DNA of 10,519 nucleotides, from positions 1 to 10,519 of the forward strand of contig JAUWCW010000043.1 in the NCBI GenBank assembly GCA_030609125.1, written 5' to 3'. Origin of the DNA: JAUWCW01 sp030609125 [NCBI: Candidatus Rokuibacteriota bacterium] (GTDB lineage: Bacteria; JAUVQV01). A program made the translations under genes and the position numbers. How positions within the stretch are numbered: position 1 is the first letter of the stretch; every line of letters begins with the position of its first letter. The notes below the pieces were generated by a model that saw only the letters and a list, made by a program, of their open reading frames with translations, did not search any database and was not told the DNA's origin. This document shows, in pieces, positions 339 through 8,667 of this stretch.

Positions 339-1184
339 ATGAGGTACCCGCTGTTGCTCTGCACCGCCATCCTGGCCCTCTCCCTGGCCGTCCCGGCGAC
401 GGCCGAAGTGGAGTGGAACATCCTCAAGACCATCCCCCTGGAGGGCAAGCCCCTCGACACGGTTCTATCTCCCGACGGGAAGAGAATGTTCGTGCTCCTG
501 CAGGGCGGGAAGCTGCAGGTGTACTCTTCCGGCGGGGAGTTGCAGGAGTCGCTGGACCTGGGAGCGCCCGCCGACGGCATCGCCCTTTCCCCCAAGGGCG
601 ATCTTCTGTACGTACGCAGCGGCGAGAAGAAAACGGTGCAGGTGGTGCGCCTGGAGTTCGTCCAGCAGATCTCCACCGCCGGCTCGCCGGTTAGGGGTCC
701 CGAGAGCGCTCCCGTCGCCATCGCCATCTTCAACGACTTCCAGTGACCCTACTGCGCGAGGCTCATGCCTCTGCTCGAGCAGGTGCTCGAAAAGTATCCT
801 CAGCAGGTAAAACTCGTCTTCAAGAACTTCCCTCTCGGCAACCACCGCTTCGCCAGGCCGGCGGCGGCCGCCGCCCTCGCCGCCGGGGAGCAGGGCAGGT
901 TCTGGGAGTACCACGACAAGCTCTTTGAGATCCACAACCGCCTCAACGAGGGTTCCTTCCTGAAGATCGCCGGGGAGGTGGGTCTGGACATTCCCTCCTT
1001 CGAAGCGGCGAGGAAGAAGCCGGAAATTGCCGCCCTCATCAATCGCGATCTCCAGGAAGGCAAGATGGCGGGCGTGAGAGGGACGCCCACCATTTTCGTC
1101 AACGGCCGGCGGCTTCAGCAGCGCAGTCTCGACGGCTTCTCCCGGGTGATCGAAAGAGAGATCGAGCGTTCGGAGAAGAAATAG
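339..1184 (+). CDS. Exported DsbA-like thioredoxin-fold oxidoreductase, probable selenoprotein (UPYC active site)
   Basis: A single frame runs from ATG 339 to TAG 1184 (281 residues) if the TGA at 744-746 is read as selenocysteine 136. Residues 1-22 are a signal peptide (cleavage after ATA), so it acts in the periplasm. Residues 27-108 hold two short beta-propeller-like repeats (LSPDGKRMFVLL; LSPKGDLLYVRS). Residues 127-281 are a DsbA-type thioredoxin domain: strand AIAIFNDFQ, then U136-P-Y-C139, a helical insert, and the cis-proline loop GVRGTPTIFVNGR. TGA stands exactly where the family has the N-terminal, nucleophilic Cys of CPYC, and both flanking halves are well preserved, so recoding fits better than a nonsense mutation. 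Likely role: thiol-disulfide or peroxide chemistry with a Sec/Cys pair. Plain gene calling would report two truncated ORFs, 339-746 and 765-1184. The gene stands alone and converges on the sulfur operon. Confidence 0.85.
752..782 (+). promoter_or_regulatory. Candidate bacterial SECIS hairpin for UGA 744-746
   Basis: In the mRNA, 752-760 pairs with 774-782: four pairs (CUGC/GCAG), one G-A mismatch (756/778), then four more (CGAG/CUCG). This closes a 13-nt apical loop starting with G761. The hairpin begins 5 nt after the UGA and is wholly coding, as in bacterial SECIS elements, where SelB recognises the apical loop and a G near its start is usual. A competing hairpin, GAGGC-UCAU-GCCUC (758-771), and a CUGCUCGAGCAG palindrome overlap it, so the working fold is unsettled. 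The loop lies about 14 nt after the UGA, slightly close. Confidence 0.5.
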
Positions 1185-1404: not shown

Positions 1405-2427
1405 CTACTTTCCTGCCGCCTGTTGCTCCAGCTTCTCTGCGATGGCCTTGATTTTCTTCTCCAGCGACCTGACCCGGTTGAAGTTGAACCACTGTTCGTT
1501 CTCCACGGGGTAGTTGTCGAAGTGCGAGGCGTAGACTCTCCATGACTCGTCCCAATTGGCGGGGTCCTTGAAGCCCAGGAGCCGGAGCTCGAGGTAGGTC
1601 AGGCCCGAGCGCGAGCCGGTCTGACAGTAGGCGATGGTCCGCTTGTTCTTGTCGAGGGAATCGAAGAATCCGCCGACACGCTCGGGAGAGAGAAAACCGT
1701 TGTCCCTCATCTTGCCCGTGGCGGGGTCCTTCGACTGGTCGTGGGTCTTCTTGTGGGAAACATTGATGGTCGTGTTCGGAACGTGTCCGCCCCTCAGGGC
1801 CCGGATGTCCTGGCCCGCGTGCTCCTTTACCGACCTGGAGTCGATAAGCTGGACGCCCTTCAGGTTTCCCGTGGCGATCTTCACTATCTCGTCCGTCGCG
1901 GCAATCCTGCTGGCAACGTAGTTTACCTTGAAGGTCTTTTCCGGCTTCTTGGCGGGCTTCGGCGTCAGGCCGTAGCCGGCGTTTTTCCAGGCGTCGATGC
2001 CGCCGTTCAGAACATAGACCTTGTCGTGTCCGAGAACTTCAAGGATCCAGAACGCGATGGCCGCGTCGCGCACCGTGTCGGAACCGACGTGCTCCCCGTA
2101 GAAAACGACATTTGTGTCGTTGCCGATACCGACCTTGCCGAGGAACTTCTCGTATTTCGAGGGATTACTGAACATCCGCGAGGTCTTGTCCCGCAGCGCC
2201 TTCTTGCACCTCTTGCCGAGGCTTATGGCCCCGGGTATGTGCCCCTTGGCGTAAGCATCCAGATCCTGGCAGTCCACAATCACCCAGTCCGTCAGATCCA
2301 GCTTGCCCTTCAGGTCCTTCGCGGAAAGCATCAGGCCCGGATTGGCCCACTCTGCCGCCGCCGCCGTCCCGGAAACCGTAACGGCAAGCACCCCCGCCAG
2401 AACCAACAACAATAGTTTCTTTTTCAT
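1405..2427 (-). CDS. Exported two-domain rhodanese-like sulfurtransferase
   Basis: 340 residues. A Lys-rich start and hydrophobic core ending in TAAAAE (residues 1-26) form a signal peptide, so the enzyme is probably periplasmic. Two tandem rhodanese domains follow: about 32-153 (VIVDCQDLDAYAKGHIPGAISL) and about 172-310 (QLIDSRSVKEH, GHVPNTTINV). Only the second keeps the catalytic loop, C268-Q-T-G-S-R. At the equivalent site the first has YGEHVGS without Cys, as usual for thiosulfate/mercaptopyruvate sulfurtransferases. It would take a sulfane sulfur from thiosulfate or a persulfide onto Cys268 and pass it to an acceptor. The C-terminus (315-340) is a charged helix, possibly a coiled coil. 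The start has a strong GGAGGAGG site. Last gene of the sulfur operon, so a partner for the TusA protein and permease is likely. Substrate cannot be told from sequence. Confidence 0.9.
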   Translation of the reverse strand: MKKKLLLLVLAGVLAVTVSGTAAAAEWANPGLMLSAKDLKGKLDLTDWVIVDCQDLDAYAKGHIPGAISLGKRCKKALRDKTSRMFSNPSKYEKFLGKVGIGNDTNVVFYGEHVGSDTVRDAAIAFWILEVLGHDKVYVLNGGIDAWKNAGYGLTPKPAKKPEKTFKVNYVASRIAATDEIVKIATGNLKGVQLIDSRSVKEHAGQDIRALRGGHVPNTTINVSHKKTHDQSKDPATGKMRDNGFLSPERVGGFFDSLDKNKRTIAYCQTGSRSGLTYLELRLLGFKDPANWDESWRVYASHFDNYPVENEQWFNFNRVRSLEKKIKAIAEKLEQQAAGK

Positions 2428-2516
2428 AATGCTTCCTCCTCCGCTTTCTTGTTTGTCTTGTCCAAACCTCTCTTTCTTCTTCCGGCTGTCACCTCCCTTT
2501 CGGCTCGGTTTGACAC
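2424..2516 (-). CDS. Possible 30-residue leader ORF coupled to the rhodanese gene
   Basis: Between the UspA-like stop and the rhodanese start, a GTG at 2516-2514 follows AGGAGG with 8 nt spacing. It opens 30 codons ending in TGA at 2426-2424, which overlaps the rhodanese ATG (ATGA). The predicted peptide is strongly basic in the middle (GRRKRG) and ends KKAEEEAL. Ribosome site, spacing and stop-start overlap fit a translationally coupled small ORF, but the sequence is purine-rich and low in information, so it may be chance. No family is recognised. Confidence 0.2.
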   Translation of the reverse strand: MSNRAEREVTAGRRKRGLDKTNKKAEEEAL

Positions 2517-2535
2517 TCTCTGCACCTCCTGCCTC

Positions 2536-2997
2536 TCAACGGGCGATGAGAACGGACATTCCCGCCCTGTTCGCCACCTCACGGCTGACGCTTCCCATGA
2601 GGATGGAGCGTTTGCGGGCCGCTTTCGACCCCACGATAACGAGGTCCGCCCCTTCTTCCTCCGCTGCGCGGATGATCTCCTCGGCGGGGTGGCCTTCCCT
2701 GATCAGGGTCTTGACGTCGGTCAACCCCTTTTCCGCGAGAGACGCGCGAAAATACTCGATGACGGCTTCCGCTTTCCTGTCGAGGCGTTCCTGGTAGCGA
2801 GTGCCCTTGAGCTCATCCTTGAGGGTCTCCATCTCCGCCTCGCCCAGCATCTCGTCCATGAGGGAGCGACCTTCGATCTTCTCCACGTAGAGAAGCACGA
2901 CTGACTCCGGATGGTTGTTGCCGAACACCTCATGGTACCGATCTATAACCGTGACGGATCCCTTGCTGTCGTCAACCGCTAAGAGTACTTTTTTCAT
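2536..2997 (-). CDS. UspA-family universal stress protein
   Basis: 153 residues, one Usp domain of standard length: strand MKKVLLAVDDSKGS (1-14), a charged helix, VVLLYVEK (33-40), and the C-terminal GADLVIVGSKA...GSVSREVANRAGMSVLIAR. The usual nucleotide-binding signature is G-2x-G-9x-G-S/T. Here it reads G123-S-K-A126 with only eight residues before G135-S136, so the second Gly is missing and the loop is one residue short. ATP binding may be weakened or lost. Cytoplasmic, with no signal peptide or membrane span. GGAG precedes the ATG by about 9 nt. It sits between the microproteins and the rhodanese in the operon; Usp proteins are often dimeric accessory or signalling factors, but its task here is unknown. 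Confidence 0.9.
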   Translation of the reverse strand: MKKVLLAVDDSKGSVTVIDRYHEVFGNNHPESVVLLYVEKIEGRSLMDEMLGEAEMETLKDELKGTRYQERLDRKAEAVIEYFRASLAEKGLTDVKTLIREGHPAEEIIRAAEEEGADLVIVGSKAARKRSILMGSVSREVANRAGMSVLIAR

Positions 2998-3056
2998 TCT
3001 GGATGCTCCATCATGTCGTGCCTGCCTCGCCTTCCCTTGTGATACTTGTCTTCCCG

Positions 3057-3275
3057 TCAGTCATCCATTGACTCGTAGAGGTCCTTGAAGTGGTCCTGGA
3101 ACTCCTCATCGAGCCCGGCGCCGATCGCCTCGCCCCCTCCCACTCCATAGGCGGGGGCCTCGGCCTTCTCGAAATACCCCGGCTGGATACCGGATCTATC
3201 GGACAGGCGATAGCCGAGGATGAACGTGACGATCAGACCGGCGATGAGGGCGACCGTCGTCCAGCGTGAATTCAT
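3057..3275 (-). CDS. Single-span membrane microprotein with acidic C-terminal tail (paralogue 1)
   Basis: 72 residues. A transmembrane helix at about 6-23 (ALIAGLIVTFILGYRL) after a short basic N-terminus (NSRW) is followed by a Gly/Ala-rich linker and an acidic tail, EEFQDHFKDLYESMDD. Positive-inside logic puts the N-terminus in the cytoplasm and the tail in the periplasm, or the helix is an uncleaved signal anchor. A GGGAGGTGG ribosome site lies just upstream, 33 nt after the preceding gene. The tail aligns without gaps to that of the neighbouring 63-residue protein, so the two are paralogues. I do not recognise a named family. Its constant partners here (permease, TusA) suggest an accessory role in sulfur uptake or relay. 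Confidence 0.8.
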   Translation of the reverse strand: MNSRWTTVALIAGLIVTFILGYRLSDRSGIQPGYFEKAEAPAYGVGGGEAIGAGLDEEFQDHFKDLYESMDD

Positions 3276-3308
3276 TTCTCCACCTCCCTCCCCGGCAGGC
3301 CGGGACCG

Positions 3309-3500
3309 CTATTCATCTTCATCCTGCTGGTAGAGTTGTTCGTAGTACTTTTCCATGTCCTCGTCGATCTCCACGGCGACGCCTTTTTCCTCGCGGCTGC
3401 TGAAGACTCCCGCATGTAAGAAAGGGGGAATGCTGTAGCCGATGAGATAGCCCAGGAAGATGGCCACGATCAGGAGCACTGCTGCGAATGATTTCGGCAT
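3309..3500 (-). CDS. Single-span membrane microprotein with acidic C-terminal tail (paralogue 2)
   Basis: 63 residues starting MPKSFAAVLL. A transmembrane helix spans about 4-22 (AVLLIVAIFLGYLIGYSI), followed by PPFLHAG, a short charged linker and the acidic tail EDMEKYYEQLYQQDEDE. The ATG at 3500 is chosen because a strong GGAGG lies just upstream (complement of 3505-3510). The open frame continues further upstream only as an overlap of the TusA gene. Tail and membrane-helix patterns (FILGY / IFLGY; LYES / LYQQ) match the downstream 72-residue protein. No catalytic residues and no Cys are present, so a structural or regulatory role beside the permease is more likely than enzymology. Confidence 0.8.
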   Translation of the reverse strand: MPKSFAAVLLIVAIFLGYLIGYSIPPFLHAGVFSSREEKGVAVEIDEDMEKYYEQLYQQDEDE

Positions 3501-3525
3501 GGGGTTTACCTCCTTCTCCGGGCCT

Positions 3526-3777
3526 TCATTTCTTGCGAATACTGAAGACGTACTTACCCCCGGTGTTCGTCTTCTCAAAGATGTCGTGACCCGCTTTGAC
3601 GCACATTGCCGAAATCGATTCCGACGATGAGGGGTTGTCGAAAACAACCTCCAGGACGTTGCCGGATTTGATCTTCTCGAGCACTTTCTTGGTGTATATC
3701 TGCGGGTGAGGGCAAACGTACCCCTGGCAGTCCAGCGTATAGACACCCTCTTCTTTCTTGTCGACTTTCATTGCCAT
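3526..3777 (-). CDS. TusA/SirA-family sulfur-carrier protein
   Basis: 83 residues, the size of TusA-like carriers. Hallmark CPxP motif: C22-P-H-P at the start of the first helix after YTLDCQGYV; Cys22 would carry the persulfide. C17 and C59 are further cysteines. The DCxGxxCPxP form resembles YeeD/YedF-like relatives more than housekeeping TusA (usually D-x-x-G-x-x-CP). The fold continues KKVLEKIKSGNVLEVVFDNPSS, then a second helix and the strand KYVFSIRKK. The start at 3777 (MAMK) has GAGGAGG 9 nt upstream; the longer frame beginning at 3858 overlaps the permease gene and lacks a better site. It follows the permease by 32 nt. YeeE/TusA-like pairs are established thiosulfate-uptake partners (TsuA/TsuB); passing incoming sulfur from permease to carrier is the likely job. 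Confidence 0.92.
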   Translation of the reverse strand: MAMKVDKKEEGVYTLDCQGYVCPHPQIYTKKVLEKIKSGNVLEVVFDNPSSSESISAMCVKAGHDIFEKTNTGGKYVFSIRKK

Positions 3778-3809
3778 GACTGTGTTCCTCCTCTGCGTCC
3801 GGACCTGTC

Positions 3810-5234
3810 TCAGAGATCCAGGTGTATCAGTTCTTTTTCCATCTTTCGCTCGGTCCACCAGTTCAGGGCCTTGACACCAAGGAAGGCCCCGCCGATCATC
3901 CCCAGGCCGAAGAGCCAGCCCGCGGGGTCACCGTTCGCCACCCTGACGAAAAACCCGCCCACGTTGCAGCCCAGGCCCAGCCGCGAGCCGACACCCATGA
4001 GCGCACCGCCGATGACGGCCAGGAAGGCCAGCTCCCGCGTGGGTTTCTTGAACTTGAACTCATTGCTCATAAGAGCCATCACGGCAGCGCCGCCGATGAG
4101 CGCGAGGGACATCCAGTCCGCCGGGTTGAGAGCCGGGTTGGGAATACCGTTGATATACCCGAAGAAGATGTTGTCCATGTTCTTCCACCCCAGCTTCTGC
4201 AAGAGCCACCCTACCCACTGCGCTTCCTGGGTGGTGACGTACCAGTAGCCCGGATCGAAGACGGTGCCCCTCATCGAGAGACCGTAGTCGGAGCCGAGCC
4301 TCTGCAGGATCTCGCCCGCGTTCCTCACGCCGAACTTTATCCTGAGCCCCTCCATGACGAACATCTGAAGCCCGCAGGCGACGCCGAGGATCAGTCCGGC
4401 GAGGGCCGTCCTCTTCGAAGAAATCAGCATGCCCCAGAAGCCCTTGATATCTTCCCCGATCCCGCCTCCCGTTCCGCCGCCGGGTTCCATGGCGCGGCTC
4501 GAGCGGGCATAGAAGAGATACACCACCATCAGGAGCAGGAGGGCGGGAACGACAACCCCGACTATGAGGTTGCCGAAATAGGCGCCGAGGAAGGATTCGT
4601 TCTCAAAGCCGAGCATCTTGGCGAAGGAGGTCACCGGCTGATTCCAGACATACCCCGCCAGATACTGGTCCACCCAGCCGTTCCCAACGTCCAGGCCCTC
4701 GGGGAGCCCCTTGCTCAAGGCCGACTCTGTCCAGGACGCCGGCACCAGCTTGTTGAGCCACCCGCCGACATCGACGAACATGGCCTGCGTGATGCTGATG
4801 GAGAGGATGACCAGGAAAGCGACGCCGTTGCCTTCACCGGTCTTGTAAAGAGACCCTGAGGCGCACCCGCCGGCGAACACCATCCCCACCCCGAAAACAA
4901 GCCCCGCGATGACCGAGTGGATACTCGTCGGCGACGAGTGGAAGGTGCTGATTCCGGTGGCGGTTACGAAGGCGGAAACAAAGGCGAAGAGAACGGTGGC
5001 TATCATGATCCCCACCACCATCCGGGGCACACCCACGGCGAAGAGATCCCGGAAGGCGGAGGCGAAGCAGAACCTCCCGTACTGCAGGCACATCCCGTAG
5101 ATGAAGCCGAACCACAGATAGGCGGAAAGATAGATGTAGTACTCGTTGTAGGAGTAAGTGATAATGCTGACAAGAGAGAAGAAGAGGACAATGCCCAGGG
5201 CCCACGTCTGATTCTTTCTCGATACTGTCTCCAC
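3810..5234 (-). CDS. YeeE/YedE-family sulfur (thiosulfate- or selenium-type) permease
   Basis: 474 residues, GTG start with GGGAG 6 nt upstream. About 9-11 hydrophobic segments, so an inner-membrane protein. Family cysteine motifs are present: YGRFC56FASAFRD, GGC124ASGSLYKTGEG and GSRLGLGC423NVGGFF, with C49 and C287 also in hydrophobic stretches. In characterised TsuA, a thiosulfate transporter of this family, conserved cysteines line the path. The protein is longer than TsuA because of a central cytoplasmic or periplasmic region (about 160-215 and 243-275) with a Gly-rich stretch, PGGGTGGGIGED. First gene of the six-gene operon, downstream of a sigma-54 promoter. YedE-like members also occur in selenium-using genomes, so substrate (thiosulfate, another sulfane-sulfur species, or a selenium compound) is open. 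Confidence 0.9.
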   Translation of the reverse strand: METVSRKNQTWALGIVLFFSLVSIITYSYNEYYIYLSAYLWFGFIYGMCLQYGRFCFASAFRDLFAVGVPRMVVGIMIATVLFAFVSAFVTATGISTFHSSPTSIHSVIAGLVFGVGMVFAGGCASGSLYKTGEGNGVAFLVILSISITQAMFVDVGGWLNKLVPASWTESALSKGLPEGLDVGNGWVDQYLAGYVWNQPVTSFAKMLGFENESFLGAYFGNLIVGVVVPALLLLMVVYLFYARSSRAMEPGGGTGGGIGEDIKGFWGMLISSKRTALAGLILGVACGLQMFVMEGLRIKFGVRNAGEILQRLGSDYGLSMRGTVFDPGYWYVTTQEAQWVGWLLQKLGWKNMDNIFFGYINGIPNPALNPADWMSLALIGGAAVMALMSNEFKFKKPTRELAFLAVIGGALMGVGSRLGLGCNVGGFFVRVANGDPAGWLFGLGMIGGAFLGVKALNWWTERKMEKELIHLDL

Positions 5235-5671: not shown

Positions 5672-7326
5672 GTGAACTGGATGACATTTCACATTGCCGA
5701 GGAATCCATTATCGCCCTCGTCTGTCTTCTGCTCTCACTGCGCATTTTCTCCGTATCCGCCTCGCTCGAACTGTCCCGGGACCGCAACCGCAGGAGCCGG
5801 ACCTTTCTCCTGGCGGCAGGGTTCGCCATCCTGGGCCTGAATAGCCTCATCCACGCCGTCATCCACGCCGCCGGTTTCAACCAGAACCTGCTCTACCAGA
5901 CCCTTACCGGCTACTGCCTCGGTCTTTTGACGCTGATTGTCGCCATTTCATCAGAAGACCCGTGGAAAAAGCGGGCCTTCCCGCTCCTCTACCTCCCCCT
6001 GCTCCTTCTCCTGCTGCCGCAGGTATACGAACAGTTTCCGATATTCAACGAGTTCCGCCCTCTGGTCTGGATCGTCATCGCCTATCTTTCCGGGATAGTG
6101 AGCATCCTGTACATGGCGACCTTCTACCACACCCGGCTGAACCGTTTTCTCCTCTCCGCTCTCGGCCATCTCCTGATATGCATCTCTGCGATAGCCCTCT
6201 TCTTTCCGTCCGGCATCGGTTCCAACTCCTGGATTTTCGGGCACATTCTTCGCCCCATGGGCTTTCTTGCCCTCTTTCTCAGCATCAACAGACAGGAACT
6301 CACGAACCTGAGGGAAAGTATCCTCTACAAGTTCATCACCACCTTCAGCCTCATGGCGGCCATTCCCGTCCTCGCTTTCGGAATGGTCGTCTTCTATGAA
6401 AACCTCTATCCGATACAGCTCATCAGCAAGAAGCTGATCGTTTTCCATCTCGTCCTGGTGAGCATGGCTTCCTGTCTTCTCTTCGCCCTTGTTCTCATCC
6501 TGAAGCTGATGCGTCCTCTGCTCAAGCTCAAGGAGTCGGTTGACCGGATAGCGGACGAGGGGGCTGAGGGCACCATCCTGACGAGCAGCCAGGACGAGAT
6601 CGGCACCCTGGCCGACGCCTTCAACGACATGCTTGCAAAACTGAGAGAGTCTTTCACGGAAAAGGAGCGGCTCACCAGACTCGCCGCCACCGGGGAACTG
6701 TCGGCGACTCTGGCTCACGAAATAAAGAACCCCCTCAACGCCATCGGCAGCGCCGCCCACTACCTGAAGAAGAACTTCCGGAGCGACCTGGTGCATGAGT
6801 TCGCCACGGTTATCTCCGAGGAAGCGACAAGGATCAACAAGCTCACCTCCAATCTCCTCAACTTCGCCCGGCCGCTGCGCCCCGACTTCAAACCGGCCGA
6901 CATCAACGAGCTGGTCCTCGACACAATGAACCTCCTGAAGGAGGAGAGCGAAGAAAGAGGCCTGCGAGTCGAGTCGAGGCTGCAGGAGGGTATCCCGGGA
7001 GTGCTGATCGACTACAACCAGATGAAGCAGCTGCTCATCAACCTGCTGCTCAACTCCTTCGATGCCGTTTCGGAAAAAGGGAGCATTCGCGTCAGCACGG
7101 CTGCCGTCAACGGGGACGTGCTCATTGCAGTACGAGACGACGGCTCCGGCATCGGCACGGAGGACCTGCAGCGCATCTTCAACCCCTTCTTCACCACCAA
7201 GACCAGGGGAACCGGCCTCGGCCTCGCTTTCAGCAGGAAAGTCGCGATGGAACACGGCGGTGACATCGATGTCCGAAGCGCTCCCGGAGAGGGCAGCGAG
7301 TTTACCATCCGCCTGCCGGCGAAGAC

Positions 7327-7330
<4 letters not shown>
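5672..7330 (+). CDS. Multi-span membrane sensor histidine kinase (NtrB/AtoS type)
   Basis: 552 residues from GTG 5672, with GAGAGAGAG about 8 nt upstream; ATG at 5681 is an alternative. Residues 8-205 contain about seven hydrophobic segments forming an integral-membrane sensor of no recognised family. Two further spans at about 221-243 and 254-275 lead into a HAMP-like linker (LMRPLLKLKESVDRIADEG...DEIGTLADAFNDML). The HisKA domain has the H-box TLAHEIKNPLNAIG with phosphoacceptor His349. The ATPase domain shows an N-box (LLINLLLNSFDAV), G1 D489-D-G-S-G-I-G, F-box FNPFFTTK and G2 GTGLGLAFS. The kinase core resembles those paired with NtrC-type regulators, and the gene overlaps the regulator start by 4 nt (ATGA). 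Almost no extracytoplasmic domain is present, so the signal is probably sensed within or near the membrane. Confidence 0.93.

Positions 7331-8667
<1,337 letters not shown>

Follow-up and report, generated by a model that had tools for sequence, protein, structure and literature searches.

A predicted DsbA-like selenoprotein with N-terminal propeller blades in a Candidatus Rokuibacteriota genome

DsbA-like selenoproteins of the UxxC type ('form 1', PF01323) are described in the accessible parts of PMC1088965, PMC1794560 and PMC13188914, the last a 2026 review, in agreement with an earlier sequence-only reading of this DNA, which had taken such proteins to be known already. The protein encoded at positions 339..1184 (plus strand) of the window, i.e. 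the whole stretch of 10,519 nt that was analysed, resembles these selenoproteins, as far as those parts describe them, in having a DSBA domain, Sec as the first residue of UxxC and, after the TGA, a candidate bacterial SECIS element. It differs in its front part, which resembles blades of a propeller and is not described for 'form 1' in the same parts of the three sources. A literature search that lay mostly outside subscription journals found no paper joining a selenoprotein with YVTN, or a selenoprotein with both DsbA and YVTN or a beta-propeller. DsbA-like UxxC selenoproteins are thus known, and the window protein is an added member of this established kind, to which it contributes an unusual propeller-blade front part. 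A related domain is also present in NF041057 (DsbG-like / Rcas_1661 family thioredoxin-like (seleno)lipoprotein), a family listed as UxxC in the accessible part of PMC13188914, whose model matched residues 112-273 at 2e-20; membership was rejected, the match reaching 73.4 bits against a curated cut-off of 190.

The ORFs at 339-746 and 765-1184, previously described as lying in one frame split by TGA, do form a single frame of 281 codons from ATG to TAG, open on both sides of the TGA. The product of the first ORF is 135 residues long and stops at TGA 744-746 (plus strand), which is codon 136 and the single internal stop of the frame, while position 765 is merely the first ATG past it, the frame running on from 747 without interruption until the TAG at 1182-1184. 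With the TGA read as U, the site reads FNDFQ-U-PYC, and U136 stands where a DsbA-type CPYC motif has its nucleophilic Cys. In an alignment of 14 full proteins, with U read as C, residues 136, 137 and 139 are invariant, and so is P250 of GTPT, the expected cis-Pro of the loop that the sequence-only reading had pointed out (codon 1086..1088, plus strand; assigned from sequence). The GC3 is 0.89 upstream and 0.83 downstream of the TGA, similar to that of the neighbouring genes.

The in-frame ATG at 765 would permit two separate proteins, a propeller part terminated by the TGA and a thioredoxin part newly started at 765. Such a restart would, however, miss both a strand of the structure model (126-132) and the active site. 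Moreover, Cys homologues read straight through this position, and in one of them, L050, the same two parts are joined in one open frame, and this explanation was rejected as exceedingly improbable. Mechanical gene calling nonetheless breaks the window gene into two ORFs, so that the active site is lost from view, and the same splitting would strike the 24 TGA relatives identified in this study.

The N-terminal 22 residues or so (339..404, plus strand) look by eye like a signal peptide, as had been proposed. They precede about two YVTN-type propeller blades (residues 26-112; 414..674, plus strand) and a DsbA/Thioredoxin_4 domain (residues 114-272; 678..1154, plus strand). The earlier assignment of a DsbA-type domain was confirmed by Pfam, with matches within residues 114-272 to PF13462 (2e-26, 93.6 bits, curated cut-off 23.2) and PF01323 (1.7e-20, 74 bits, curated cut-off 25.6). 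Residues 111-270 were modelled at block pLDDT values of 92-98, and five helices between strands 157-163 and 251-254 represent a helical insertion in the thioredoxin fold. For this region Foldseek ranked 3gyk and BdbD (3eu3) on top, with the ScsC proteins (4xvw, 7rgv) just behind. These structures, which are among the best solved matches to the C-terminal domain, comprise the DsbA part only and were matched over about 165-185 columns. They also differ at the catalytic position, where the alignment with 3gyk displays Cys in place of Sec; BdbD and ScsC presumably carry Cys there as well.

For residues 26-112 no Pfam family was listed, and the segment resembles the YVTN propeller of PDB 1l0q with an E-value of 6.6e-17, or 1.3e-18 when that part alone was used as query. 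The model of this part displays eight strands at block pLDDT values of 56-81, which corresponds to about two blades in one chain, too few for ring closure. The propeller-like N-terminal segment of the sequence-only reading is accordingly real, but it is not unique to this protein, as the Cys homologue L050 (from genome G362) shares the layout. L050 is 35% identical to the window protein over 256 residues that include both blades and domain and has CPWC where the window protein has UPYC; a match to 1l0q was obtained with its N-terminal part too (1.5e-14). No tRNA-Sec was found in G362 in a search at E 1e-9.

Other front parts were observed among the homologues, such as a SurA-like N-terminal part in L067 (Pfam) and an N-terminal membrane segment in L025 (by eye). 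Four loci (L047, L054, L056 and L058) share a Cys-rich N-terminal segment, RCNCxCGMTLxECRxKDP, fused to the DsbA-like domain, which looks CcmH-like by eye; Pfam gave no match to it in L047 or L054, the two loci tested. The window's own genome additionally encodes a Cys paralogue of the domain (L023, contig C198:7871-8344) with 30% identity.

At codon 136, the 55 homologue rows, window included, have either TGA (13 rows) or Cys (42 rows) and nothing else. The rows stem from 54 loci, the window's own among them, as one locus gave two rows, and some are interdependent, L027 and L028 being near-copies. U136 hence falls on the nucleophilic Cys of its homologues, which was the alignment check suggested earlier, and the claim that TGA stands in place of the first Cys of CPYC holds. 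The only other genome of the same phylum in the comparison set (G001, of the same order) has TGA at this codon as well, at 35-36% identity. Over the domain, identity to the nearest relatives found is about 52-53%, and a plasmid search returned 1591 records, all below 60% identity (10 of the 1591 rows listed).

The family was further surveyed in 396 genomes sampled from the phylum of G002, the genome holding the Acidobacteria locus L025. A match at 1e-15 was present in 230 of them, and at least 21 of the matches listed had one TGA inside. All 21 were inspected, seven being part of the 55-row set (L025 of G002 included) and 14 being fetched later to test the idea that the TGA marks a pseudogene. 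The TGA lies at codon 136 in 19 of the 21, including 12 of the 14 fetched genes; the other two have Cys there, with a TGA 143 codons further on, near the gene's end, in G253, and no TGA within the aligned stretch in G068. Stops at unrelated positions, for which the sequence-only reading had advised looking among close relatives, were thus found nowhere inside the domain among these 21 flagged matches listed. Together with the window gene, the genes with TGA at codon 136 number 25. The named TGA relatives are all Acidobacteria (five of five, L025-L029), in a sample that is biased, since most others came from a search centred on one Acidobacteria member; on this detail the earlier statement that DsbA-like selenoproteins occur in some Deltaproteobacteria calls for adjustment.

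The genome containing the window (G000; 2.3 Mb, 376 contigs, 92.4% complete, 2.15% contamination) appears equipped to decode such a codon. Its tRNA-Sec scored 67.9 bits, above the cut-off, and was also reported by ARAGORN, with anticodon tca. The selA gene (593 bits) adjoins selB (314 bits, model positions 2-399 of 581) on contig C310, and selD scored 363 bits, so that this genome has the full set of selA, selB, selC and selD, whose absence the sequence-only reading would have counted against a selenoprotein. The selD gene (L018 1474-2523, contig C159) has an in-frame TGA of its own, in CGUAAK, and would encode a Sec-containing SelD, which separately points to Sec insertion in this genome. A genome-wide reassignment of TGA, for example to Trp or Gly, would account for the open frame and for nothing else. 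It is already contradicted by the other window ORFs checked, seven of nine ending at TGA and two at TAG, which makes TGA an ordinary terminator here, and it also conflicts with the presence of tRNA-Sec, selA, selB and selD and with the relatives, which at this site have Cys or TGA and never Trp or Gly. This reading was rejected, its likelihood being practically negligible.

A tRNA-Sec was detected in 14 of 18 tested genomes with a U gene, namely G000, all six of G001-G006 (61.7-77.8 bits) and seven of 11 in the further set. None was found in G223, G199, G230 and G132 (E 1e-9; 149 of 484-772 candidates scored), which, given the partial scoring and possibly incomplete assemblies, is not proof of absence. 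Among 16 genomes reached through Cys genes, five had a tRNA-Sec above 60 bits and two more reached 47.3 bits, barely above the cut-off of 47, and may represent other long tRNAs. Three of four other genomes tested (G114, G123 and G372, the fourth being G362) had one too. In G002, two equal matches of 77.8 bits were observed on contigs C18 and C32, one of them at a contig end and perhaps an assembly duplicate.

The bacterial SECIS model given in the accessible part of PMC13188914 has a loop of 3-9 nt with G in the first two positions, a stem of 4-16 bp, a distance of 16-37 nt from the TGA and an energy of -7.5 kcal/mol or lower. In a scripted scan that allowed unbroken stems only and took the energy of the hairpin alone, the model fitted 24 of 25 TGA genes (12 of the 13 in the 55-row set and all 12 further ones) and none of the 28 Cys genes scanned (26 of the 42 Cys rows, 16 being left out, plus two further). 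Chance is not negligible at this threshold, as synonymous recoding reached -7.5 in 41-231 of 1000 trials per U gene and in 0-151 of 1000 per Cys gene. The exception among the TGA genes is L024 (G001), with a best hairpin of -5.0; visual inspection permits drawing a GGU-loop hairpin there if one mismatch is allowed. In the Cys gene L049 the same LEQVL peptide is specified by codons from which the hairpin does not arise, so the protein sequence by itself does not dictate the hairpin. A search of Rfam over the window gave no family at gathering score.

Two SECIS arrangements were observed within the family, with the hairpin at 19 nt in 20 of the 25 TGA genes and at 34 nt in four. In the former, the loop lies 19 nt past the TGA, the hairpin is typically GAGGGUCG-GUC-CGACCCUC, and some genes display matching changes on both sides of the stem. 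Shuffle controls on the 13-row set favoured the pairs in two respects (6 of 500 shuffles did as well for pairs changed on both sides and 12 of 500 for cells paired) and less so in two others, with 44 of 500 reaching the covariation score and 496 of 500 the number of further pair types. Sliding the structure by -2 columns gave more two-sided cells (four versus two) and a higher score, though with 34.3% of cells paired versus 78.7% for the structure itself. The pair counts of this larger set are therefore not decisive, and the difference between U and Cys genes carries more weight as an argument.

The window belongs to the second arrangement. Its best SECIS candidate (775..790, plus strand) is a 6-bp hairpin that lies 34 nt past the TGA, has AGGU as its loop and scores -8.1 kcal/mol, and a small hairpin, GAGGC-UCAU-GCCUC (758..771, plus strand), lies between the TGA and this candidate. 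The nearest TGA relatives, L054, L056 and L058, likewise have an AGGU-loop hairpin at 34 nt with the small hairpin before it, the latter displaying one two-sided change among the four genes. Such an extra hairpin is a property of the 34-nt arrangement, as seen when window positions 744-800 are compared with L025, L072, L083 and others. Taken alone, the window's own hairpin is weak evidence: it fits the model, yet its -8.1 kcal/mol was matched by 115 of 1000 synonymous recodings and does not exceed chance, and the folding z-score varied with the stretch chosen (-2.29, -1.78 or -0.62). For L054, L056 and L058, 25, 29 and 7 of 1000 recodings, respectively, did as well. The shuffle control on these four rows was weak too, at 126 of 500 for two-sided changes and 26 of 500 for cells paired.

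These comparisons bear directly on the possibility that the gene is a pseudogene, its TGA being either a true nonsense mutation in a decaying gene or an artefact of assembly. In its favour, the window's family is represented by one genome only, an assembly of 376 contigs, and with the nearest relatives as distant as stated above, selection on the window gene is not measurable. The sharing of the TGA by 25 genes, the intact frame with neighbour-like GC3 on both sides, the Sec machinery of the genome and the split in SECIS fit between U genes and Cys genes scanned all argue against it, and the pseudogene reading was dropped as very improbable. Four features supported by comparison, namely the catalytic site, the genes for decoding, the conservation of the codon and the SECIS contrast, instead identify the gene, at the level of sequence, as that of a selenoprotein.

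On a tree built from 44 of the 55 rows, the distribution of U and C needs six changes, five of which are forced by starred, well-supported branches; gain and loss of Sec are indistinguishable in direction on this tree. The Cys locus L047 sits beside the U loci L054, L056 and L058 and retains part of the hairpin letters, a placement that would, as a guess, fit a change from Sec to Cys. The family thereby offers a compact test case for Sec/Cys replacement at one catalytic position, with the SECIS model fitting the Sec side only among the genes scanned.

With a probability of about 95%, we regard the product as one apparently exported DsbA-like thiol-disulfide oxidoreductase that uses Sec as its catalytic nucleophile (UPYC), the TGA being decoded via SelB and SECIS. 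SelB would bring the Sec-tRNA to the ribosome, guided by the downstream SECIS hairpin, and the TGA would be read as Sec. A Sec nucleophile, a DsbA fold and a likely signal peptide together suggest thiol-disulfide exchange in the envelope, where the exported Sec136/Cys139 pair would react with disulfides of envelope proteins and the DsbA fold with its cis-Pro250 loop would contact the substrate. The two N-terminal blades probably serve as a holding site for a partner, a substrate or further copies of the same protein.

As to the direction of this exchange, the genome encodes a DsbD/CcdA-type membrane protein, and VKOR was not found in a genome search, which leans towards a reductase or isomerase. 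The DsbA-type fold and the TPT loop would equally suit a selenoprotein that is an oxidase like classical DsbA, partnered with DsbB. This role appears less likely, given the VKOR and DsbD/CcdA results and, as general chemistry, the tendency of a Sec nucleophile to favour reduction and isomerisation. A preferred reductase or isomerase role can be extended into a more speculative and rather doubtful scheme, in which the blades, two per chain, would gather several copies of a Sec-dependent envelope isomerase/reductase into a ring, and N-terminal parts and SECIS position would both have been exchanged repeatedly in the family. The N-terminal part of ScsC assembles copies by other means.

The genomic context adds little, as the gene lies near the contig start, a rhodanese gene on the opposite strand points towards it, and no operon partner was seen at the locus. 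Around the relatives' genes in G150, G362 and G001 no shared partner gene was recognised, a weak negative because ORF picking in these high-GC loci partly took frames lying over known genes on the opposite strand; at L081 it missed selA and selB. On the minus strand of the window, genes for a rhodanese, a universal stress protein, a TusA/YedF-like and a YedE/TsuA-like protein stand in a row (1405-5234), the YedE and YedF models matching below their curated cut-offs, and the row may be read as sulfur or selenium handling. Beside these sulfur genes, at 5672-8667, lies a pair encoding a sensor kinase and an NtrC-type sigma-54 response regulator.
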